Assembly (NCBI RefSeq): GCF_000621545.1
Contig: NZ_JHYA01000002.1
Span: 186,001-250,000 of the forward strand
Direction: 5' to 3'
Length of the DNA: 64,000 nt
Origin: Anaerovibrio lipolyticus LB2005
GTDB lineage: Bacteria; Bacillota; Negativicutes; Selenomonadales; Selenomonadaceae
The position numbers and the translations under genes were made by a program. Under the pieces are notes generated by a model. The model saw nothing but the letters and a program-made list of their open reading frames with translations. It had not been told where the DNA came from and ran no database searches. Shown piece by piece: positions 24,418 to 58,105 of this stretch; positions within the stretch are counted from its first letter, which is position 1, and every line of letters starts with the position of its first letter.

Positions 24418-25936
24418 GAGAGTGTGAAAGTTTTTCTGTAAATAATAACAACAGCAACAGTTAAGGTCTTCTATGGTAAAATATAGAATCATAGGAGGCC
24501 TTTTACTATGGCAAAAAAATCAAAGAAACCTGTTCACCATGTTCAGATGACAGAAGGTAAGCGACAGATCATTCAGCAGCTCTTGTCTGAATATGAGATT
24601 GAAACAGCGGAAGACATTCAGAATGCTTTGAAAGATCTACTTGGTGGAACCATCAAAGAGATGATGGAGGCGGAAATGGATAGCCATCTTGGCTACCAGA
24701 AATCTGAGCGTTCAGACAACGAGGATAGTCGTAACGGCTACAAGACGAAAACTGTCAACAGCAGTTATGGCAGTTTTCAGATTGATGTTCCCCAGGACAG
24801 GCAGTCCACCTTTGAACCACAGGTTGTCAAAAAGCGCCAGAAGGACATTTCGGACATTGACAAGAAAATTATATCCATGTATGCCAAAGGCATGACCACC
24901 AGACAGATTTCGGATACCATAGAGGACATTTACGGCTTCGATGTTTCTGAAGGCTTTATTTCTGATGTTACGGATAAATTGTTGCCTGAAATACAGGACT
25001 GGCAAAATAGGGCCTTATCCAGCATCTATCCTGTGGTATTTGTTGATGCAATTCATTACTCTGTAAAGGATAACGGCATCATTAGGAAAATGGCAGCTTA
25101 TGTTATCTTTGGAATAAACAGAGACGGCATAAAAGAAGTATTGGGCATCTACATTGGTGAAAATGAGAGTGCCAAGTATTGGCTCAATTTATTCAATGAA
25201 CTTAAAAACCGTGGCCTTAGGGATATTTTAATTATCTGTGCCGATGGCCTGACCGGCATGAAGGAGGCTGTTGTAGCAGCCTTCCCCAAAGCCGAATACC
25301 AGCGCTGCATTGTTCACCAGGTACGCAACACATTAAAATATGTGGCAGATAAAGACCGTAAGGAATTTGCTACTGACTTAAAGAGCATTTACCACGCCGT
25401 TACCGAAGAACAGGGCCGAAAAAACCGCAATGCCGTTACTGAAAAATGGAAGGATAAATATCCTAATGCCATGAAGAGCTGGAAGACAAATTGGGATGTA
25501 ATAACGCCAATTTTCAAATTTTCGTCGGAGGTCAGGAAGGTAATTTATACCACTAACGCTATTGAAAGCCTCAACTCCAGCTACAGGCGTCTTAACCGCC
25601 AGCGCAGCGTTTTCCCGGATTCACAGGCCTTAATGAAGGCACTATATCTTGCTACTCTGGAAGCCACTAAAAAATGGACTATGCCGATTCGTAATTGGGG
25701 CCGTGTATACGGCGAATTAAGCATTATGTACGAAGATCGGCTTGAATATTAGGCTATTTCTTGTTGCAACTTTATTGAAATTGAGGCCTGGAGCCAGTCC
25801 TCAGTTTATTGAGTTGTCTAAAATTACAGCTAAGAAAAATGCTGGAACCGGTTTCAACCAATTCCAGCAAAATTATGAAATATATAGTTTTTATTGCCAT
25901 AGAAGACTCTATTTACAGAGATTTTTTCACAGGCTC
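24418..25936 (+). mobile_element. IS256-family insertion sequence, complete, 1519 bp
   Basis: Bounded by imperfect terminal inverted repeats of 27 bp (24418-24444 and 25910-25936) that agree at 21 positions; both ends start GAG, share TGTGAAA and end CTGTAAATA. Flanks are an identical 8-bp duplication. It contains one intact transposase gene. About 184 bp lie between the transposase stop and the right end and include a hairpin (GCTGGAA with ATTCCAGC). The intact ends, duplication and gene suggest a fairly recent insertion that may still move. Confidence 0.93.
24508..25752 (+). CDS. IS256-family (Mutator type) transposase
   Basis: A DDE transposase of 414 residues, a typical size. The catalytic acids are probably Asp180 (VDAIHY), Asp246 (CADGLTGM) and Glu353 (NAIESLNS). 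The N-terminal part has the family segment KEMMEAEMDSHLGY and a helix-turn-helix-like MTTRQISDTI. AGGAGG precedes the ATG. No frameshift or stop is seen, so the enzyme should be active. Confidence 0.96.
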   Translation: MAKKSKKPVHHVQMTEGKRQIIQQLLSEYEIETAEDIQNALKDLLGGTIKEMMEAEMDSHLGYQKSERSDNEDSRNGYKTKTVNSSYGSFQIDVPQDRQSTFEPQVVKKRQKDISDIDKKIISMYAKGMTTRQISDTIEDIYGFDVSEGFISDVTDKLLPEIQDWQNRALSSIYPVVFVDAIHYSVKDNGIIRKMAAYVIFGINRDGIKEVLGIYIGENESAKYWLNLFNELKNRGLRDILIICADGLTGMKEAVVAAFPKAEYQRCIVHQVRNTLKYVADKDRKEFATDLKSIYHAVTEEQGRKNRNAVTEKWKDKYPNAMKSWKTNWDVITPIFKFSSEVRKVIYTTNAIESLNSSYRRLNRQRSVFPDSQALMKALYLATLEATKKWTMPIRNWGRVYGELSIMYEDRLEY

Positions 25937-31093: not shown

Positions 31094-33181
31094 ATGAAGG
31101 TTTATACTACTGACAAAATTCGTAATGTGGTTTTGCTGGGCCATGGTGGCTGCGGAAAGACAACCTTGGCTGAAGCAATGGCTTATCTGAGCGGTATAGT
31201 GTCAAGACCGGGCAAGATAGAGGATGGTTCCACTATTTCCGATTGTACGAAGGAAGAAGTTAAAAGACAGATTTCCATATCTACCTCTGTTGTTCCTGTT
31301 GAATGGGACGATTTTAAGATTAATGTTCTTGATACTCCAGGATTCTTCGACTTTGAGGGCGAGGTCAATGAGGCCATGAGCGTAGCGGACGGTGCTATTA
31401 TTGTGGTTTCCGGTAAGGCCGGAGTGGAGGCAGGTACAGAGCGTGCGTGGGATCTTTGCGAGAAGTATCACCTGCCAAGAATTTTCTTTATTACAGATAT
31501 GGATATTGACTCTGTTTCCTATCGTCAGGTGCTGGATGATCTCAATGTTATGTTCGGCAAGAAGATTGCACCTTTCAATATGCCGTTGCGTGAGGATGAA
31601 AAGCTGGCAGGCTATATCAACGTAATTCAGAAAAAGGCCTTCCGTTATCAGGGGGAAGAGGCCGTGGAGGAGGAGGTTCCGGACTATTCCGTAAGCTACC
31701 TCAATCAGTATAATGATTCATTGATGGAGGCCGTTGCAGAAACATCTGAAGAATTTCTTGACCGTTATTTGTCAGGTGACTCTTTCTCAGAGGCAGAGAT
31801 TCGTGCGGCAGTAAGAAGTGCTATTTCCGATGGTTCCATCATTCCTGTGGAGTCAGGATCTGGTATTGCTCAGCGCGGTGTGTATACCTTGCTGGACGAC
31901 ATTGTAAAGTATATGCCATCCGCTGATAATCGCAAAATGTCTGGTATTAATGCCCAGACAAATGAGATTTTCGAGGCAAACTTTGATATTCTTAAGCCAA
32001 AAACTGCATTTGTGTTTAAGACTATCGCGGATCCATTTATTGGTTTTTACAGCTTGATAAAGATTCGCTCTGGTGTAGTTAAGGCCGATGATATAATGTA
32101 TGATGTGCGTACCGGCAATGAGTTTAAAATTGGTAAGCTGTACGTACTGCGTGGTAACAAGGCTACTGAGGTTCCTGAGCTTCATGCTGGCGATTTGGGT
32201 GCTTTGGCCAAGCAGACGGCGGTTAAGACTGGTGATACCTTGTCTACAAAGAATAATCCAGTGGTATATGCCAAGATGGATTTGCCGACACCTTATACCT
32301 GCATGAGATGGAAGCCGGTTAAGAAGGGTGACGTGGATAAGATTGCTATGGCAATGCAGAAGATTGCCGCAGAGGATCAGACCTTTAAGTTTGAACGTGA
32401 TAATGCCAACCGTCAATCCTTGATTTATGGTATGGGTGACCTGCATCTGGAAATTATCCAGTCCAGACTTCTCAATGAGTATAAGGCTGAGATTAAGACA
32501 GAGAAACCGAAGGTTGCCTTCCGTGAGACCATAAAGAAGCGTTCTGATGTGGAGTTTAAGTACAAGAAGCAGACTGGTGGACACGGCCAGTATGGTCATG
32601 TAAAGATGCGCTTTGGTCCATCTGGCACCAATGATCCGTATGTATTTGATGAAGAGGTTGTAGGCGGTGCAGTACCAAAGAATTTCTTCCCTGCTGTTGA
32701 AAAGGGTATTGCCGCAGGCTGTGAGCGGGGACCATTGGCAGGCTATCCTGTAGTTGGCGTTCATGCCACCCTTTATGATGGTTCTTATCACTCCGTTGAT
32801 TCCTCAGAGAATTCCTTTAAGATTGCTGCAGAGCAGTGCTTCAAGAAGGGGATTATGGAGGCAGGAGCAGTCCTTTTGGAGCCATTTGTAATGCTGAAGG
32901 TAACGGTGCCTGATTCCTATATAGGTGATGTTATTGGTGACCTGAACAAGCGTCGGGGCAGTGTAATGGGCATGACCCCGATGAATGGTAAGCAGATTAT
33001 TGAAGCGGAGATTCCGCAGATGGAGCTCTATGGATACAGTACGGTGCTTCGCTCTATGACTGGTGGCCGGGGCGACTTCTCCTATGAATTCTCCCGCTAC
33101 GATCAGGCTCCTGAGGATGTACAGTCCAAGGCTATCGCTGCATATCAGGAGAAGCTGGCAGCCAGTGACAATGAAGAATAA
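31094..33181 (+). CDS. Elongation factor G-like protein with altered GTPase motifs
   Basis: 695 residues with the five-domain EF-G layout. G1 is GHGGCGKT (16-23). G3 is DTPGFF (80-85), with Phe where translational GTPases have the catalytic His. G4 is TDMD (134-137) instead of NKxD, so the usual base-recognition Asn and Lys are missing. Domain IV has TGGHGQYGHVKM. These changes suggest a paralogue of EF-G (the FusA2-like group) rather than the main factor. No ribosomal protein genes adjoin it. The GTPase activity and role are uncertain. GGAGGGG precedes the ATG. Confidence 0.85.
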   Translation: MKVYTTDKIRNVVLLGHGGCGKTTLAEAMAYLSGIVSRPGKIEDGSTISDCTKEEVKRQISISTSVVPVEWDDFKINVLDTPGFFDFEGEVNEAMSVADGAIIVVSGKAGVEAGTERAWDLCEKYHLPRIFFITDMDIDSVSYRQVLDDLNVMFGKKIAPFNMPLREDEKLAGYINVIQKKAFRYQGEEAVEEEVPDYSVSYLNQYNDSLMEAVAETSEEFLDRYLSGDSFSEAEIRAAVRSAISDGSIIPVESGSGIAQRGVYTLLDDIVKYMPSADNRKMSGINAQTNEIFEANFDILKPKTAFVFKTIADPFIGFYSLIKIRSGVVKADDIMYDVRTGNEFKIGKLYVLRGNKATEVPELHAGDLGALAKQTAVKTGDTLSTKNNPVVYAKMDLPTPYTCMRWKPVKKGDVDKIAMAMQKIAAEDQTFKFERDNANRQSLIYGMGDLHLEIIQSRLLNEYKAEIKTEKPKVAFRETIKKRSDVEFKYKKQTGGHGQYGHVKMRFGPSGTNDPYVFDEEVVGGAVPKNFFPAVEKGIAAGCERGPLAGYPVVGVHATLYDGSYHSVDSSENSFKIAAEQCFKKGIMEAGAVLLEPFVMLKVTVPDSYIGDVIGDLNKRRGSVMGMTPMNGKQIIEAEIPQMELYGYSTVLRSMTGGRGDFSYEFSRYDQAPEDVQSKAIAAYQEKLAASDNEE

Positions 33182-33203: not shown

Positions 33204-33232
33204 TTGACAAAAATAAAATAATAGTTTATATT
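33204..33232 (+). promoter_or_regulatory. Promoter of the ethanolamine operon
   Basis: TTGACA (33204-33209), 17-bp spacer, TATATT (33227-33232). The transcript would start near 33239 and carry a leader of about 190 nt before the permease gene. Confidence 0.8.
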
Positions 33233-33250
33233 AAGCCCATAACTTGATAC

Positions 33251-33396
33251 TGACTAGCAATGAAGCTTCGCCCCAGTGCCCTTGGCACTGTAAGGCGAAG
33301 CTTTTTCTGTCAGTGTAGTTATCTAGGTATTATATTTATATGCTTGGCAATGGGGCCGTCGAAGTTTCTGACGAGAAGCTTTGGCGGCTTTTTTGT
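33251..33396 (+). promoter_or_regulatory. ANTAR-type dual-hairpin antitermination leader
   Basis: Two short hairpins with hexaloops occur: AGC-AATGAA-GCT (33256-33267) and GGC-AATGGG-GCC (33346-33357). Both match the EutV/ANTAR RNA motif (loop A at 1, G at 4). Each overlaps the 5' arm of a terminator: 33263-33306 (AAGCTTCGCC with GGCGAAGCTT) and 33355-33396 (GCCGTCGAAG with CTTTGGCGGC, then six T). Binding of an ANTAR regulator would hold the small hairpins and prevent termination. In known systems EutV does this when EutW senses ethanolamine with B12. No eutV or eutW is in this window. Confidence 0.75.
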
Positions 33397-33426: not shown

Positions 33427-34806
33427 ATGAGCATGAATTATAGTGGTACTGCAGTAATGGAAGTACCAAAGAAGGAAGAAGATTTAAGTCGTGTATTAAA
33501 GCCTATTCATTTGTGGTCATTGGCAGTAGGCCTTGTTATATCCGGTAATTACTTCGGCTGGAGCTATGGCTTTGCCGAGGGCGGTGTTATGGGCCTGGCA
33601 TTGGCTCTTATACCGGTAACTATTTTCTATGTAACCTTTATTTTGTCATATTCGGAGCTGGCAACAGCAATTCCACATGCTGGTGGTCCTTCAGCCTATG
33701 CCCGCCGTGCGCTGGGTAAGTTTGGCGGCTATCTTAATGGTATCAGCTGCCTTATAGAGTTTGTATTTGCTCCACCGGCTATTGCCTTGGCTGTAGGTGG
33801 TTACGTACATGCCCTGCTTCCGATAATTGACCCAATGGTGGCAACTGTAGCTGCATTTTTCTTCTTCATCTTCCTGAATTATTTGGGAATGAAAACCTCT
33901 GCCACCTTTGAGCTGGCTGTAACAGTAATTGCTCTCCTTGGTTTGGTGGTGTACTGGTTCCTGGCAGCTCCTCATTTTGATCCTGCACTGGTAATGGCTG
34001 AGCCTCTTCTTCCAAACGGTTTCAGCGGTGTAATGGCAGCTGTTCCTTTTGCAATCTGGTTCTATCTGGCCATTGAGGGCGGTGCCATGAGTGCTGAGGA
34101 GATGGTAAATCCTCAGAAGGATCTTCCAAAGGGCTTTCTTAGTGGTATGGCTACTCTGCTGGTTATGGCTGCGTTAACTTTGTTCCTTACCGCCGGCCTT
34201 GGTAACGTTGAGGCTGTTTCTGCTGTTGATTTCCCATTGCCATTGGCTTTGGCTTCTGTATATGGTGATGGTTCCATGCCGGTTCTTCTCATGAGTGGTA
34301 TTGGCCTTTTCGGTTTGGTTGCATCTCTCCATGGTATTATCGTGGGCTATTCCCGTCAGACCTATGCTATGGCCCGTACCGGCTATCTGCCAAAGTTCCT
34401 GGCACATATTGATGAAAAGCATCATACCCCTGTATGGGCTCTGATCCTGCCAGGTATTGTATGTCTCTTTACAGCACTTACAGGTCTTACTGATTTGGTA
34501 ATCACCATTGCTTGCTATGGCTCCGTTGTTATGTATGTTACTTCTTTGATTTCCCTGTTTATTTTGCGTAACAAGGAACCAAATCTGAAGCGCCCGTTCC
34601 GTGTGTCCTATCCTATTATTCCAATTATCAGCATGGTAATGGCTATTTTCTGTGTAGTAAGTCTGGTAATGGCTTCTAGTGCTGCTCTTCCTTATGTGGC
34701 TGGTATTTATATAGTGGCTATTGCATATTACTTTATCCATGGCAATAAGCATATCCGTCCATACGAAGAAGAATTTGGTGTTATGGATGATTTGGATCAG
34801 GAATAA
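33427..34806 (+). CDS. eat: Ethanolamine permease, APC superfamily
   Basis: Imports ethanolamine. 459 residues with about twelve membrane segments; it shows the family segments LWSLAVGLVISGNYFGWSYG near the start and YLAIEGGAMSAEEMVNPQKD, typical of ethanolamine permeases. ATG 33427 follows AAGGGAGGA; an upstream extension to 33340 would run through the terminator hairpin and is rejected. It starts the operon and ends 3 nt before eutA. This replaces the EutH transporter of compartment-type eut operons. Confidence 0.9.
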   Translation: MSMNYSGTAVMEVPKKEEDLSRVLKPIHLWSLAVGLVISGNYFGWSYGFAEGGVMGLALALIPVTIFYVTFILSYSELATAIPHAGGPSAYARRALGKFGGYLNGISCLIEFVFAPPAIALAVGGYVHALLPIIDPMVATVAAFFFFIFLNYLGMKTSATFELAVTVIALLGLVVYWFLAAPHFDPALVMAEPLLPNGFSGVMAAVPFAIWFYLAIEGGAMSAEEMVNPQKDLPKGFLSGMATLLVMAALTLFLTAGLGNVEAVSAVDFPLPLALASVYGDGSMPVLLMSGIGLFGLVASLHGIIVGYSRQTYAMARTGYLPKFLAHIDEKHHTPVWALILPGIVCLFTALTGLTDLVITIACYGSVVMYVTSLISLFILRNKEPNLKRPFRVSYPIIPIISMVMAIFCVVSLVMASSAALPYVAGIYIVAIAYYFIHGNKHIRPYEEEFGVMDDLDQE

Positions 34807-34809
34807 ATT

Positions 34810-36222
34810 ATGGAGCAGGAAATTCTAAGTGCCGGTATTGATTTGGGAACCACCACATCACAGGTGATATTCAGCCGCATAAAGCTGGAAAATATATCAT
34901 ATACGGCGGTTCCCGAAATCCGTATCAAGGAAAAAGAGATAATTTATAAAAGCAAGATATACTTTACACCTATGATGGAGGATAACCGTATTGATATCCC
35001 TGCGTTAATTTCTATATTACAAAAGGAATATCATCTGGCGGGCATAAAGCGTCAGGATATTTCCACGGGAGCCGTGATTATAACTGGTGAAACCTCCCGC
35101 AAGGAAAATGCCCGACAAGCCCTTCAAGGACTATCAGCAGAGGCAGGTGACTTCGTGGTGGCCGAGGCCGGTCCGGATCTGGAATCTGTTTTGGCCGGCT
35201 TTGGCTCTGGGGCCGCAGCTGCTTCAAGGGTATGGGAAGGAGCGGTTATAAATTTTGATATCGGTGGAGGTACCACCAATGCTGCGGTATTTTCCAACGA
35301 GGAAATACAGGATTCCTTTGCTTTGGATATTGGTGGACGCCTGGTGCGTTTGGATGAGAATGGGAAAATTACTTATATTTCTGACCGCCTTATACCGCTG
35401 ATTAATGAAATGTCCCTGCCCCTGAAAATAGGTGACAAGGTGGAGCTGAATTATCTTAGGCAGCTTACTGATGCATTGGCCATGGTACTTCTGCATATTT
35501 GTCAGGGACAGGAATTAACTGCTGTTGAGGAAAAATTATTCATCAATCATGGTATAGAGTATAAGAAATTTGAAAGGGTGATGTTTTCCGGTGGTGTGGC
35601 TGAATGTATTTATGACAGCTCATGGGATGGAGGCTATGTTGATATCCGGGAGGTAAATAAATACGGGGATATTGGTCCTTTGTTGGGAGCCTCTATTCGC
35701 CGTATATTCAGTCGGGAGTGCGGGATAACTTTATTGGAGCCACGGGAAAAGATTAGAGCCACTGTCATTGGTGCTGGCAGTTATTCTGTACGAATTAGTG
35801 GCAGTACGGTGATTATGGATGATGGCTGTGTGCCATTGACAAATATCCCGGTGTTACATCTTGACCATACGGAACAGGGGCATGAGCTGAAGGAGGAATA
35901 TAGGAGAAAGAGGCGTTTTTATCCTCAGTCTCAGCAGGTGGCCATAGCCTTTGCAGGGAAAAGATCCCCTGAATACAGTGCAGTTAAGGCTGTAGCCAAG
36001 GCTTTAGCGGATATCACAAGAAATGAGGGGGATATTCTGCTGGTTATTGTGGAACAGGATTTTGCAAAGGCCTTGGGAATGCTGCTTCGACAGTTTGCCA
36101 GTCAGCATCATGTTATTTGCCTGGATCGTATTCATGCTGCGGATGGAGATTATGTGGATGTGGGAAAATCTGTATCCGGCATAGTTCCTGTGGCGGTGAA
36201 GACATTGATATTCAAGAGCTGA
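34810..36222 (+). CDS. eutA: Ethanolamine ammonia-lyase reactivating factor EutA
   Basis: Reactivates the B12 enzyme by exchanging damaged cobalamin, using ATP. It has the actin/Hsp70-like ATPase motifs GIDLGTTTSQV near the start, NFDIGGGTTNAAVF in the middle and FSGGVAE later. The 470 residues match the family. It starts 3 nt after the permease stop and precedes eutB by 15 nt. Confidence 0.93.
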   Translation: MEQEILSAGIDLGTTTSQVIFSRIKLENISYTAVPEIRIKEKEIIYKSKIYFTPMMEDNRIDIPALISILQKEYHLAGIKRQDISTGAVIITGETSRKENARQALQGLSAEAGDFVVAEAGPDLESVLAGFGSGAAAASRVWEGAVINFDIGGGTTNAAVFSNEEIQDSFALDIGGRLVRLDENGKITYISDRLIPLINEMSLPLKIGDKVELNYLRQLTDALAMVLLHICQGQELTAVEEKLFINHGIEYKKFERVMFSGGVAECIYDSSWDGGYVDIREVNKYGDIGPLLGASIRRIFSRECGITLLEPREKIRATVIGAGSYSVRISGSTVIMDDGCVPLTNIPVLHLDHTEQGHELKEEYRRKRRFYPQSQQVAIAFAGKRSPEYSAVKAVAKALADITRNEGDILLVIVEQDFAKALGMLLRQFASQHHVICLDRIHAADGDYVDVGKSVSGIVPVAVKTLIFKS

Positions 36223-36237: not shown

Positions 36238-37635
36238 ATGAGATTAAAAACGACATTATTTGGTCACACTTATGCCTTTAAGGATGTGAAGGAGGTTTTG
36301 GCCAAAGCAAATGAGGAAAAATCGGGAGATATATTGGCCGGAGTGGCTGCGGAGTCTACAGTGGAAAGAATTGCCGCCAAGACAGTATTGGCTGATATGA
36401 CCTTAGAGGATTTGCGCAATAATCCAGTGGTTCCCTATGAAGATGATGACATAACCAGAGTGGATCAGGATTCAGTAGATGAGGAGGTCTTTGGCCGTAT
36501 TAAGGCAATGACTGTTGGAGAATTCCGGGAATTTTTATTATCAGCCTCGGAGAAGGAAATCGCTGCTATTCGTCCGGCTTTGACTTCTGAAATAGTTGCT
36601 GCCGTGGCTAAGCTCATGTCAAATATGGATTTGGTATATGCTGCCAAGAAAATGCATGTGGAGGCCACCTGCAATACTACTATTGGTAAGCCGGGAACTT
36701 TATCCTCCAGATTACAGCCAAATCATGCCACCGATGATGTGGCTGGAATAATGGCCTCAGTTATGGAAGGTATCAGCTATGGCGTAGGGGATGCGGTTAT
36801 AGGACTGAATCCGGCAGTGGATGCCATAGATAGCGTGGCGGATATACTTAAGGAATTTAAGGATTTCATGTATAAATGGGATATTCCAACCCAGAATTGC
36901 GTATTGGCTCATGTTACCACCCAGATGAAGGTTCTGGAAAGGAATCTGGCCCCTATGGATTTAATGTTTCAAAGTCTTGCAGGCTCTGAGGTGGCCAGCC
37001 GTGCCTTTGGCATAAATGTTGCCCTGATTGACGAGGCTTACGCCATCATGAAGGAAAGAAAAAGTTCAACAGGCCCTAATTTCATGTATTTTGAGACAGG
37101 CCAGGGCTCTGAGCTGTCGGCTGATGGACATCATGGTGCTGACCAGCTGGTGATGGAGGCCCGTTGCTATGCCTTCGCCAAGCGGTATAATCCGTTTTTG
37201 GTAAATACAGTGGTTGGTTTTATTGGTCCTGAGTATCTCTATGATGGCCGTCAGATGATTCGGGCGGGGCTAGAGGATCATTTTATGGGCAAGCTCACCG
37301 GTATTCCTATGGGCTGTGATGTATGTTATACCAACCACATGCGGGCAGACCAGAATGACTTGGAAAATTTGGCCATGATGTTGACCATGGCTGACTGCAA
37401 CTACATTATGGGAATACCAGCAGGGGACGATGTAATGCTCATGTATCAGACCACCAGCTACCATGATGCAGCAGCGTTACGCAGATTAAGCGGAAAGCAG
37501 ACAATCGCTCCATTTGAGAAGCGTATGAAGGAGCTGGGGATTTTTGATGAGCTGGGAAATCTTTCACAAATCGCCGGTGATCCGTCATTGTTCATCAGCA
37601 GAGAGCAGGAAATGCATTTAAGGAGTGCCGTATGA
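36238..37635 (+). CDS. eutB: Ethanolamine ammonia-lyase large subunit
   Basis: Catalytic subunit that turns ethanolamine into acetaldehyde and ammonia with adenosylcobalamin. 465 residues, with family segments MYKWDIPTQNCVLAHVTTQ, YFETGQGSELSADGHHGADQ and MGCDVCYTNHMRADQND. The start ATG follows GGTAGGTTAG. It overlaps eutC by 4 nt (ATGA), so the two subunits are translated together. Confidence 0.97.
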   Translation: MRLKTTLFGHTYAFKDVKEVLAKANEEKSGDILAGVAAESTVERIAAKTVLADMTLEDLRNNPVVPYEDDDITRVDQDSVDEEVFGRIKAMTVGEFREFLLSASEKEIAAIRPALTSEIVAAVAKLMSNMDLVYAAKKMHVEATCNTTIGKPGTLSSRLQPNHATDDVAGIMASVMEGISYGVGDAVIGLNPAVDAIDSVADILKEFKDFMYKWDIPTQNCVLAHVTTQMKVLERNLAPMDLMFQSLAGSEVASRAFGINVALIDEAYAIMKERKSSTGPNFMYFETGQGSELSADGHHGADQLVMEARCYAFAKRYNPFLVNTVVGFIGPEYLYDGRQMIRAGLEDHFMGKLTGIPMGCDVCYTNHMRADQNDLENLAMMLTMADCNYIMGIPAGDDVMLMYQTTSYHDAAALRRLSGKQTIAPFEKRMKELGIFDELGNLSQIAGDPSLFISREQEMHLRSAV

Positions 37636-38405
37636 TGAAAGAAGAATTTGTACCTGATGTATCCTTGCCGGAGGTTAAGGATAAGGTGTTAATTGATAAC
37701 CCGAAAAGCTTGGAGCTGGTAAAGCGCCTGAAAAAGACCACTAATGCCCGACTGGGGGTAGGGCGAGCTGGTGACCGCTTCAAGACTGAAACATTGCTGA
37801 AATTTCGGGCCGACCATGCTATTGCCCAGGATGCAGTTTGGACGGAGATAGATGAATCTCTGGTGGACGAAATGGGCTTTTACAAGGTTCAGACCATGGT
37901 CAATAACAAGGAGGAATATGTCAGAAGGCCGGATTTGGGGCGTATTTTCTCTGAGGAAACTACTGAGGCCATAAAGAGGGACTGCATTCACCAGCCTGAT
38001 GTGCAGATAATCGTGGCGGATGGTCTTAGCGGATTTGCTATAAATGCCAATCTGAAGGATATGTATGCCATTATGATGGATGGCTTCAGAGAGAAAAAAT
38101 ACAAGGTAGGAACCCCCATATTTGTCCGCTATAGCCGTGTAGCCACCATGGACAGAATCAGTGAGGCCCTGGGAGCCAAGGTTACAATACAACTAATTGG
38201 GGAAAGACCGGGACTGGCCACTGGGGAAAGCATGAGTGTATATATGGCTTATGAATCCAGTCCAAAGAAGCCAGAATCCCAGCGCACAGTGGTATCAAAC
38301 ATTTACAGCAATGGTATACCACCCATTGAGGCCGGAGCCCAGGTAGTTCATTTGACGGAAATCCTCATGCGGGAGAAGAAAAGTGGTGTTGAACTGAAAA
38401 TCTAA
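37632..38405 (+). CDS. eutC: Ethanolamine ammonia-lyase small subunit
   Basis: Binds cobalamin with EutB. 257 residues, somewhat shorter than the enterobacterial subunit, mainly by a shorter N-terminal region. Family segments are NARLGVGRAGDRFKT, VADGLSGFA, QLIGERPGLATGESMS and SNIYSNGIPPIEAGA. The ATGATG start lies in the eutB stop. It lacks an obvious microcompartment-targeting tail, which fits the absence of shell genes. Twelve nt separate it from cobT. Confidence 0.96.
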   Translation: MMKEEFVPDVSLPEVKDKVLIDNPKSLELVKRLKKTTNARLGVGRAGDRFKTETLLKFRADHAIAQDAVWTEIDESLVDEMGFYKVQTMVNNKEEYVRRPDLGRIFSEETTEAIKRDCIHQPDVQIIVADGLSGFAINANLKDMYAIMMDGFREKKYKVGTPIFVRYSRVATMDRISEALGAKVTIQLIGERPGLATGESMSVYMAYESSPKKPESQRTVVSNIYSNGIPPIEAGAQVVHLTEILMREKKSGVELKI

Positions 38406-38417
38406 GGAGGCAAAATT

Positions 38418-39449
38418 ATGGTACAGATGGATGAAGCAGCAAGATTAACCTCAAGGATGGCAGTGCCTAAAAAGAGTCTGGGCTTGTTGGAGCTTCAGAT
38501 ACAGAAATTGATGCGGGCTTGGAAGACAATACAGTTTGATCTTAGGCCTTTTCATTTTATTTTTGCGGCAGATAATGGTATAGTGGAAGAAGGTGTAGTG
38601 CGCCAATCTCAGGACATAACATATTTGCAGGCCAGAAATATGATGCTGGGGCTGTCAACCATCAGCTGTTTTTGCCAGTCCAATAACATTCCTTGGCTGG
38701 TAGTGGATGTGGGGATCAAGCGCGAGGAATCTGTAGGACTTAACCGCAAGGTTCGTCAGGGAACGAGAAATTTTCTGAAGGAACCGGCCATGACGGCAGA
38801 GGAGTTTCAAAGAGCCTATGACGTTGGCTATGAACAGGTGGATGAGGCTGTAAGACAGGGACACAATATACTGTCCTTTGGGGAAATGGGTATAGGAAAT
38901 ACTACCACTTCCTCTGCGGTCCTTCATGCCCTTTCTGGTATCTCCGCAGAATTTATTGTGGGATATGGAGCCAATCCAGCTTTTCCGGAGGTTATACAGC
39001 GCAAGCGACAGGTTATAGCTGATGCAGTGAGGAAATATAAGGAATTTTTGAGAACACCACAGGATATAATTCGTTATGTGGGTGGCTTCGATATTGCAGC
39101 CCTATGTGGTGCCATGGTTCGCTGCGGTGAGCTGCGTATTCCATTTGTACTGGATGGCTTTATTACGGCAGTGGCCTTTGCCTGTGCTGCCAAAATTCAT
39201 CCTGATGTTGCCCGTGCAATGATACCTTCTCATCTTTCCAAGGAGCCGGGGATGAAATACGCTTTGGCCCTGGGGGGCATTAATGAAGATGAGGTGCCTA
39301 TTAGAGCTGGTTTGGCTTTGGGTGAGGGTACAGGTGCTATTTTGGAGCTGAATATATTGCGTACAATGCTTTATACAGTGGCCCATATTGATCAGATGGC
39401 CCATCTGGAGGCTGAAGCTATGGAAGCCTGTCGGGCAAAATCGTCATAA
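38418..39449 (+). CDS. cobT: Nicotinate-nucleotide-dimethylbenzimidazole phosphoribosyltransferase
   Basis: Makes alpha-ribazole phosphate for the lower ligand of cobalamin. 343 residues; motifs include FAADNGIVEEGV, the stretch FGEMGIGNTTTSSAVL and ALALGGINEDEVPIRAGLALGEGTGA. AAGGAGG precedes the ATG. Its presence in the eut operon suggests that B12 lower-ligand activation is raised together with the B12-dependent lyase. Confidence 0.95.
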   Translation: MVQMDEAARLTSRMAVPKKSLGLLELQIQKLMRAWKTIQFDLRPFHFIFAADNGIVEEGVVRQSQDITYLQARNMMLGLSTISCFCQSNNIPWLVVDVGIKREESVGLNRKVRQGTRNFLKEPAMTAEEFQRAYDVGYEQVDEAVRQGHNILSFGEMGIGNTTTSSAVLHALSGISAEFIVGYGANPAFPEVIQRKRQVIADAVRKYKEFLRTPQDIIRYVGGFDIAALCGAMVRCGELRIPFVLDGFITAVAFACAAKIHPDVARAMIPSHLSKEPGMKYALALGGINEDEVPIRAGLALGEGTGAILELNILRTMLYTVAHIDQMAHLEAEAMEACRAKSS

Positions 39450-39480
39450 AAATAATTAATTTGATAAGTAGGTGAGAACA

Positions 39481-40053
39481 ATGGCAACCTATTTGGTAAG
39501 ACATGGAGAATCTGAGGGAAATTGCCATAGGGGTTACTATGGCAGATTGGATACCCTATTGACAGAGCAGGGGAGGGCTCAGGCAAGAGAGGCCGCACAA
39601 GAGCTTTCAGAGTTGCTGAAGGATAATTCTGCCCATAAGGTGGCCATTTTCACCAGCCCTTTACAGCGGGCTTTTAGGACAGCCTGTATTTTGGAGGAAA
39701 ATCTGGATGTTCCCTGCCAAATAGAAGTGGTGCCTTATCTGACGGAAATAGATTTTGGCCGTTGGGAAGGCATGGATTACGAGGAAATAAAGGAGAAATA
39801 TCCGGAGGAATGCCTTGAATGGCAGGAGGATTGGATTAATTTCCGATTTCCTCAGGGAGAGAGCTTCAAGAAATTTTATCAGCGTGTTGAATGGTGCTGG
39901 AAGGGTCTTGAACGGAAAATAGACGCCTTTGACGGTGATTCCGTGGTGGTATCCCATGGCGGGGTGCTGAAGGTAATAAAGCTCATTAATGAAAATCGCC
40001 CAGTGGATGATTTCTGGAAATTGAAATTCTCTCTGGGAGAGGTACAGCAGTAA
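39481..40053 (+). CDS. cobC: Alpha-ribazole phosphatase-like histidine phosphatase
   Basis: A phosphoglycerate mutase-like enzyme that in CobC removes phosphate from alpha-ribazole phosphate, the product of CobT. The catalytic motif LVRHGESEGN is at the start, with EIDFGRWEGMDYEEI and VVSHGGVLKV later. The 190 residues are typical. ATG 39481 follows TAGGTGAG; GTG 39472 is less likely. The position directly after cobT supports the cobalamin role, though the sequence alone cannot exclude another substrate. Confidence 0.85.
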   Translation: MATYLVRHGESEGNCHRGYYGRLDTLLTEQGRAQAREAAQELSELLKDNSAHKVAIFTSPLQRAFRTACILEENLDVPCQIEVVPYLTEIDFGRWEGMDYEEIKEKYPEECLEWQEDWINFRFPQGESFKKFYQRVEWCWKGLERKIDAFDGDSVVVSHGGVLKVIKLINENRPVDDFWKLKFSLGEVQQ

Positions 40054-51939: not shown

Positions 51940-51979
51940 TTATACGAGTGTATTGTGTGTGTAAAATATTATAGGATCG

Positions 51980-57909: not shown

Positions 57910-57929
57910 GGTTAATGGAAATACAGATA

Positions 57930-58105
57930 CAGTCTTTGGGGCAGGGTGTGATTCCCTACCGGCGGTATAGCCCGCGAGCCGTTTTGGCATGACACGGTGA
58001 GATTCCGTGGCCGACAGTATAGTCTGGATGAGAAAAGACTTGTATGTACATTGTTTTTGTGTGCATTTGGGGCTGTTGAAGAGTTTCTTTCTTCAACAGC
58101 CTTTT
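57930..58105 (+). promoter_or_regulatory. FMN riboswitch (RFN element) with terminator
   Basis: The aptamer (57930-58039) has the RFN parts in order: GGGGCAGGGTG, ATTCCCTACCGGCGGTA, AGCCCGCGA, GGTGAGATTCC, GCCGACAGTATAGTCTGGAT. A terminator follows: GGCTGTTGAAG (58071) with CTTCAACAGCC (58091), then TTTTCT. High FMN would stop transcription before ribD. Confidence 0.95.

Follow-up and report, generated by a model that had tools for sequence, protein, structure and literature searches.

The closest described relatives of the locus reported here are the attenuators of the EutV/EutW system in Enterococcus faecalis, in which a REC-ANTAR regulator with a partner kinase acts on eut (Ramesh 2012, PMC3369931; Walshe 2022, PMC8934654). 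The RNA site is a hexaloop with A at position 1 and G at position 4 (A1/G4), carried by a short stem, the 3' arm of which also forms the terminator base. These hexaloops come as P1-P2 pairs 5-12 nt apart, activity is lost or falls sharply with linkers of 3, 14 or an additional 20 nt, and both hairpins of the close pair are needed for antitermination (PMC3369931, PMC8934654). A survey of actinobacterial ANTAR RNAs allows linkers of 2-25 nt. Walshe 2022 redefines the minimal ANTAR site as one hexaloop, keeps the dual form as necessary for antitermination, leaves the role of single hexaloops open, and notes that the EutX RNA contains a lone hexaloop (PMC8934654).

In the ANTAR nitrogen regulon of Desulfotomaculum acetoxidans, several attenuators share a transcription unit, with at least 13 in six units, and the same survey overall also names P-II and ammonium transporter genes (PMC3369931). 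Serial ANTAR attenuators and their links to nitrogen genes, including P-II and ammonium transporters, are thus already known under the dual-hairpin model with which the Desulfotomaculum sites were found, whereas the units described below each carry a single hexaloop. The PdtaS/PdtaR system of Mycobacterium tuberculosis (Rv1626, PDB 1s8n) combines a GAF_PdtaS and HisKA_2 kinase with a REC-ANTAR regulator. According to Walshe 2022, the ANTAR sites of mycobacteria depart from the dual-hexaloop motif in some cases and take the form of stem-loops located at ribosome binding sites and in 5' UTRs (PMC8934654), in contrast to the intrinsic terminators considered here. In the literature searched, we came across neither a single-hexaloop ANTAR terminator nor a class with A at loop position 4 (A4).

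Two proposed attenuators before the eut operon

The window, by which we mean the whole 64-kb stretch of Anaerovibrio lipolyticus LB2005 DNA that was analysed, contains an ethanolamine operon in the order permease, eutA, eutB, eutC, cobT, cobC-like and P-loop kinase (Table 1). Its permease is 98% identical to that of the nearest named relative, A. lipolyticus DSM 3074, and a close eut permease (at least 79% identity) occurs in 16 of the 151 genomes of the family. An initial annotation, made from the sequence alone, had described the operon as lacking a microcompartment; accordingly, we found no BMC shell gene (PF00936) in the genome with a search that was positive in E. coli and Synechococcus. 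The locus further differs from E. faecalis in having no eut-dedicated regulator and no AdoCbl riboswitch at the Rfam gathering threshold in the window. The sole Rfam family at that threshold in the window is an FMN riboswitch aptamer (57928-58043, 114.5 bits), and an ORF at 24508-25752 resembles an IS256-type transposase by eye from its translation.

Table 1. Positions of the eut leader elements and operon genes in the 64-kb window
Feature	Position	Strand	Remarks
Sigma70-like promoter, TTGACA-17-TATATT	33204..33232	+	Scores 11/12; -10 box ends 23 nt before HP1
Distal hexaloop hairpin HP1, AGC-AATGAA-GCT	33256..33267	+	A1 33259, G4 33262
Intrinsic terminator T1	33262..33306 (about)	+	5' arm contains HP1 3' arm
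Proximal hexaloop hairpin HP2, GGC-AATGGG-GCC	33346..33357	+	A1 33349, G4 33352
Intrinsic terminator T2	33352..33391, U tract to 33394	+	5' arm contains HP2 3' arm
Ethanolamine permease	33427..34806	+	TIGR00908, 471 bits, above cut-off
eutA, ethanolamine ammonia-lyase reactivase	34810..36222	+	
eutB, ethanolamine ammonia-lyase large subunit	36238..37635	+	
eutC, ethanolamine ammonia-lyase small subunit	37632..38405	+	
cobT-like phosphoribosyltransferase	38418..39449	+	PF02277; TIGR03160 278 bits, under 319 cut-off
Alpha-ribazole phosphatase-like (cobC-like)	39478..40053	+	TIGR03162 158 bits, just under 163 cut-off

Sequence reading and folding place one promoter, HP1, T1, HP2 and T2, in this order, between the end of an EF-G-like gene at 33181 and the permease start, with predicted transcription start positions. 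Both hairpins are A1/G4 hexaloops on stems of at least 3 bp, each over the 5' arm of its own intrinsic terminator, just as the initial annotation had read them. It had set them in tandem about 80 nt apart; the tandem arrangement stands, and the distance is corrected to 90 nt from A1 to A1, with the complete terminator T1 in between. T1 folds at -30.8 kcal/mol (z -6.6) and T2 at -30.4 kcal/mol (z -7.1), the entire leader has a z of -8.3, and the bare hairpins reach -1.1 (HP1) and -4.2 kcal/mol (HP2). Because the 3' arm is common to the hairpin and the terminator base, the two structures are mutually exclusive, and the disparity in energy suggests that a bound protein would be needed for the hairpins to win. 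Positions 33239-33254 can also pair with 33308-33323 just past T1 (ATAACT..ACTGAC with GTCAGT..AGTTAT), and Selenomonas leaders have, by eye, a different pair at the equivalent place (CATCA with TGATG); this pairing competes with no terminator and no hexaloop.

A hairpin-plus-terminator pattern matches twice in the window, both times in the eut leader, with 0.43 matches expected, and 9 of 100 shuffled windows reach two matches. A structural scan of the window returned four hexaloop-over-terminator units, all A1/G4. The other two are end-of-gene terminators with a 3-bp A1/G4 hexaloop, at 181 (after a short frame ending near 170) and at 51976 (after a chemoreceptor-like ORF), both neighbours being judged by eye, and their loops are probably due to chance. 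In a background set of 17 records (530 kb with both strands counted, eut leaders masked), A1/G4 accounted for 22 of 198 hexaloop-over-terminator units under a loose definition and 8 of 35 under a strict one, three of these eight being kinase-leader units of the kind described below. The window statistics alone are weak to modest, and it is conservation that carries the case for the two units. Elsewhere in the same genome (L070, about 1500; G000:C1:12575-12621), a terminator bears the A1/G4 hexaloop AGC-AACGAT-GCT at its tip instead of its base, where it would not compete with the terminator.

Conservation and spacing of the hexaloops

To describe these leaders across the class, we used permease matches at E 1e-120 or better, present in 35 of 380 genomes. 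They gave 34 leaders: 33 from a first scan that fixed A at the first loop position and accepted any letter at the fourth, and that of G301, scanned upstream of the permease match (no start codon found); G119, at a contig edge, gave none. Distant permease matches of 37% identity (G089, G123) and loci L037 and L038 were left out. The permease matches of G242 (L111) and G244 (L114) each hold one in-frame TAA, which must lie late as the frames from the chosen starts span at least 300 codons.

Among the 33 leaders, a proximal A1/G4 unit is present in 28 and a distal or sole unit (HP1) in 30, the latter with G4 in 11 and A4 in 19. A repeat scan with all loop letters free returned 55 strong units from the same leaders: 39 A1/G4, 15 A1/A4 and one G1/A4. 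The tandem arrangement noted in the initial annotation is kept in 11 of the 12 Anaerovibrio/Selenomonas clade leaders read, always as two units in identical order, and an alignment of 14 leaders of this clade shows HP1 A1 and G4 to be invariant while the T1 stem diverges. We consider it quite probable that the window leader consists of two single-hexaloop attenuators in series, read by a lone ANTAR regulator of nitrogen type.

The initial annotation had instead likened the hairpins to the paired motif bound by EutV. In its canonical form, HP1 would serve as P1 for recruitment and HP2 as P2 for antitermination, with one dimer bridging about 80 nt. Both loops are indeed A1/G4 in a conserved order, and the pairing of the 5' segment just past T1 could shorten the effective distance. 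However, T1 lies between the hairpins, and HP2 is made only once T1 has been read through; published linkers measure 5-12 nt, and 20 additional nt abolish activity (PMC3369931, PMC8934654), whereas the two units lie 76 to 203 nt apart over 26 two-unit leaders; and single-unit leaders exist. Nor does either hexaloop appear to have a closer partner. In the 45 nt upstream, a P1-like hairpin of the form A1/(A or G)4 accompanies none of the 30 distal or sole hexaloops (0.5 expected) and 1 of the 28 proximal hexaloops (0.85 expected). In all 11 leaders in which both units are G4, a promoter scoring 10-11 of 12 has its -10 end 17-23 nt before HP1, so that no space remains for another hairpin with its linker. 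With the hexaloops 90 nt apart in the window, T1 between them, no P1 partner and no EutV, the comparison with the EutV-bound pair does not hold, and we regard a dual hairpin as improbable.

It is marginally less probable still that T1 merely ends the EF-G-like gene, with only HP2-T2 regulating eut and the HP1 hexaloop a product of chance or a relic. HP1 does lie downstream of that gene, the window has a weak promoter-like site (9/12) between T1 and HP2, G057 has HP2 only, and end-of-gene terminators with a chance A1/G4 hexaloop do occur. This account is weakened by the stronger promoter that precedes HP1 in every G4-G4 leader, by the retention of the HP1 A1 and G4 although the T1 stems diverge, and by ammonium transporter leaders of identical two-unit build. 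Two attenuators in series thus remain our preferred reading, and the class appears to be a natural answer to the single-hexaloop question, namely promoter-proximal terminators with one hexaloop each, frequently arranged as a series of two, ahead of amtB, eut and further genes. By analogy with the requirement of E. faecalis EutV for a pair, a lone hexaloop might be too weak for antitermination.

The ANTAR regulator and ammonium transporter leaders

The window genome holds exactly one ANTAR protein gene, on contig C7 (eut is on C2), which agrees with the initial annotation in placing the regulator outside the window; its proposed genome search for an ANTAR response regulator and partner kinase thus finds one such pair, and its refuting condition of a genome devoid of ANTAR genes does not apply. 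The gene encodes a 191-residue REC-ANTAR response regulator, and directly upstream lies a kinase gene with GAF_PdtaS, HisKA_2 and HATPase domains, the pair being upstream of groES (identified by eye). The best solved relatives of the regulator are PdtaR (1s8n, 202 bits), followed by EutV (6wsh, 143 bits), although the tree placement of these two references is unsure. Both the kinase domains and the closer match to PdtaR thus conform to the PdtaS/PdtaR type. No dedicated EutV/EutW pair was found near eut in this genome, its sole ANTAR gene being the one near groES. Because the regulator is nearer PdtaR, its kinase is of the GAF_PdtaS type and the second, eut-associated pair that relatives possess is absent, a response to ethanolamine or B12 is not implied. 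Across the family, ANTAR matches occur in 102 of 151 genomes (101 above the cut-off) against 16 with a close eut permease, indicating that ANTAR proteins there are not eut specific.

We propose the following mechanism. Each attenuator would comprise a 3-bp A1/G4 hexaloop hairpin whose 3' arm is common with the terminator base, and in the default state T1 and T2 would both form, leaving the eut operon off. The adjacent GAF_PdtaS kinase would phosphorylate and thereby activate the PdtaR-like REC-ANTAR regulator, which could then bind each hexaloop as it leaves RNA polymerase, hold the hairpin and block its terminator, such that eut would be read only when both terminators are passed. The functional unit would be one hexaloop with no P1 recruitment hairpin, and the first such unit would lie within tens of nucleotides of the transcript start. 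Probably, amtB, the ammonium transporter gene, is under this regulator as well, through two like units, which would tie eut to the nitrogen state and not to ethanolamine alone. The expression of eut in rumen Selenomonadaceae thereby becomes testable as part of nitrogen control.

In the window genome, two G4 units in series precede amtB (L205). A strict G4 pattern was searched in 17 genomes, and 20 loci were hand-picked for good-looking terminators. Units lie before amtB in 12 of these loci from 11 genomes, mostly followed by glnB; Ammonium_transp and P-II domains were confirmed at one locus (L176), and the others were assigned by like translations. The remaining eight loci precede a glutamine synthetase domain gene (G317), a xanthine/uracil permease gene with an amidohydrolase gene, an amino-acid-type binding protein gene and a sodium:solute symporter gene (all G034), a 4Fe-4S protein gene (G231), a transporter-like ORF judged by eye (G302), no clear gene (G310), and a GAF_PdtaS kinase gene (G302, L192). 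A wider regulon pattern gave 45 matches in the window genome, 30 of which were scanned as loci, and only the two eut units resembled hexaloops at a terminator base; the amtB units escape this pattern, so the search is non-exhaustive.

We also evaluated amtB leaders that had not been chosen by their leader sequence. From 18 hand-picked genomes, 14 had amtB (PF00909), all 14 with an ANTAR protein, and 13 of these amtB leaders, that of the window genome included, carry G4 units, at least two in 10 of them, and no A4 unit in a scan that admitted only G or A at position 4. G4 units also precede amtB in genomes where no close eut permease was found. The exception, G088, has an ANTAR protein and an amtB leader without a unit. 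The set scored as ANTAR-less comprised 21 genomes, namely 20 of the 49 family genomes without an ANTAR match and G012, whose match is weak and under the cut-off; amtB is present in seven, and one of the seven leaders has a unit (13/14 versus 1/7, Fisher p 0.0009, uncorrected for kinship). That lone positive, G046, is a 63% complete assembly whose genus mate G020 has an ANTAR protein. The six unit-free leaders, G012 among them, all belong to a single genus, which makes the control nearly one event. In 20 of 21 amtB leaders tested, 14-26 nt separate the -10 box of a promoter scoring 10-12 of 12 from the start of the first unit, and none of 35 amtB and kinase-leader units has a P1-like neighbour (0.74 expected). 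Judging from these leaders, the window regulator probably also controls ammonium uptake through amtB.

Loop position 4 and the second ANTAR protein

All 35 eut-bearing genomes encode an ANTAR protein, here called the core protein, and 21 encode a second one. The second gene lies on the same contig as the permease and within about 2.5 kb of it in 19 of the 21, and on other contigs in G034 and G229. Over the 33 leaders, 19 of the 20 genomes that have a second ANTAR protein carry an A4 unit, as against 0 of the 13 that lack this protein (Fisher p 2e-8, uncorrected for kinship); G301, which has the second protein, adds the A4 unit GGGC-AAAAGC-GCCC, making 20 of 21. In the exception, G223, the distal unit is N-masked past its 5' half, and that half reads A4 (L029) but was left uncounted. 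In a permease tree the distal loop changes once, along the branch that loses the second ANTAR protein, so the evidence is weaker than this p value implies. About two losses of the second protein took place, in the Anaerovibrio/Selenomonas clade and in G234, and the association rests on few evolutionary events.

The loops are distributed by position. Where an operon-proximal hexaloop is present among the 34 leaders, it always has G at position 4, and the distal or sole first hexaloop is G4 in the Anaerovibrio/Selenomonas group, which has one ANTAR protein. Five genomes with the second protein have A4-only leaders (G310, G317, G296, G297, G301), and G057, with the core protein alone, has a G4 unit only. 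G234 (L155), likewise with the core protein alone, has no hexaloop unit in its eut leader and keeps G4 units in its amtB leaders. In A4 units, loop position 2 is mostly A, and positions 3, 5 and 6 vary. A broad A4 pattern run against 17 genomes proved too loose and was excluded from the counts.

In E. faecalis, changing G to A at loop position 4 lowered EutV induction (PMC3369931), suggesting that recognition of an A4 loop would call for a changed protein. In EutV, Tyr164 stacks against G4, and Arg142, Lys149 and Glu160 form bonds to it (PMC8934654). We mapped these residues with a numbering offset of 2 read from the solved-structure match. The 35 core proteins have Arg, Lys and Glu at positions 142, 149 and 160 without exception, and Tyr (29), Phe (5) or His (1) at 164. 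The 21 second proteins, which form one clade (SH-aLRT 100), have Gln (19), His (1) or Leu (1) at 142, Arg (19) or Lys (2) at 149, Ala (16), Glu (4) or Val (1) at 160, and His (21) at 164; four thus keep Glu160 and two keep Lys149. The loop-plugging Met172 is kept in 35 of 35 core and 20 of 21 second proteins. We rejected His164 alone as the determinant of A4: AmiR (PDB 1qo0) has His and NasR has Trp, and both targets are A1/G4 loops according to Ramesh 2012 (PMC3369931). The core protein of G083 also has His, yet its loops are G4; this sequence is a tree outlier from an assembly listed at 8% contamination. Only the combined pocket change separates the G4 and A4 protein groups.

The one-letter change of HP1 in relatives with a second regulator suggests that the pairing of loop and protein follows a readable code. 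By eye, HP1 resembles A4 units, as in Selenomonas AGC-AATGGC-GCT against Pelosinus AGC-AATAGC-GCT and AAAGGC of G083 against AAAAGC of G034. An origin of HP1 by deletion-fusion from a kinase-leader G4 unit was considered as well, and is possible, but the greater likeness of HP1 to A4 units speaks against it. The ancestral leader probably needed two ANTAR proteins of different loop specificity. ANTAR proteins are far commoner in the family than this eut operon, which would suit a reading of the hexaloops by an unrecognised second RNA-binding protein or sRNA, unrelated to the ANTAR pair. We consider this very improbable: amtB G4 units track ANTAR presence, A4 loops track the second ANTAR protein, and the loop fits the published EutV, NasR and AmiR signature (PMC3369931).

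We lean slightly towards a joint reading with four parts. The first is a two-letter ANTAR code, in which the core PdtaR-like protein would read G4 and the second protein would read A4 through a rebuilt pocket (R142 to Q, K149 to R, E160 to A and Y164 to H in most). The second is an ancestral Negativicutes eut AND gate of A4 and G4 single-hexaloop terminators, and the third is control of the second pair by the core regulator via its G4 unit, as a coherent feed-forward loop. Finally, when the Anaerovibrio/Selenomonas lineage lost the second pair, the distal loop would have become G4, leaving one regulator to open both locks, as would be the case in the window. If true, the A4/G4 pairing would be a specificity code for ANTAR-RNA recognition, of which none was found in the literature searched. 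Two ANTAR regulators could then work independently of each other within a cell and even on a shared leader, and the pairing would offer an orthogonal antitermination pair for circuit building.

The leaders of the second pair bear on the feed-forward arrangement. With position 4 left free in the scan, 12 of the 20 genomes examined have a G4 unit ahead of the kinase gene of the second pair. Those without one are the five A4-only genomes together with G242, G243 and G244, in which the second pair is located after the permease. The core kinase gene had no such unit ahead of it in the four genomes checked. The second pair therefore appears to be under the core regulator, and eut would be under both, which amounts to a feed-forward loop. 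An A4 unit also lies ahead of eutA, identified by Pfam, in the Propionispora locus (L031).
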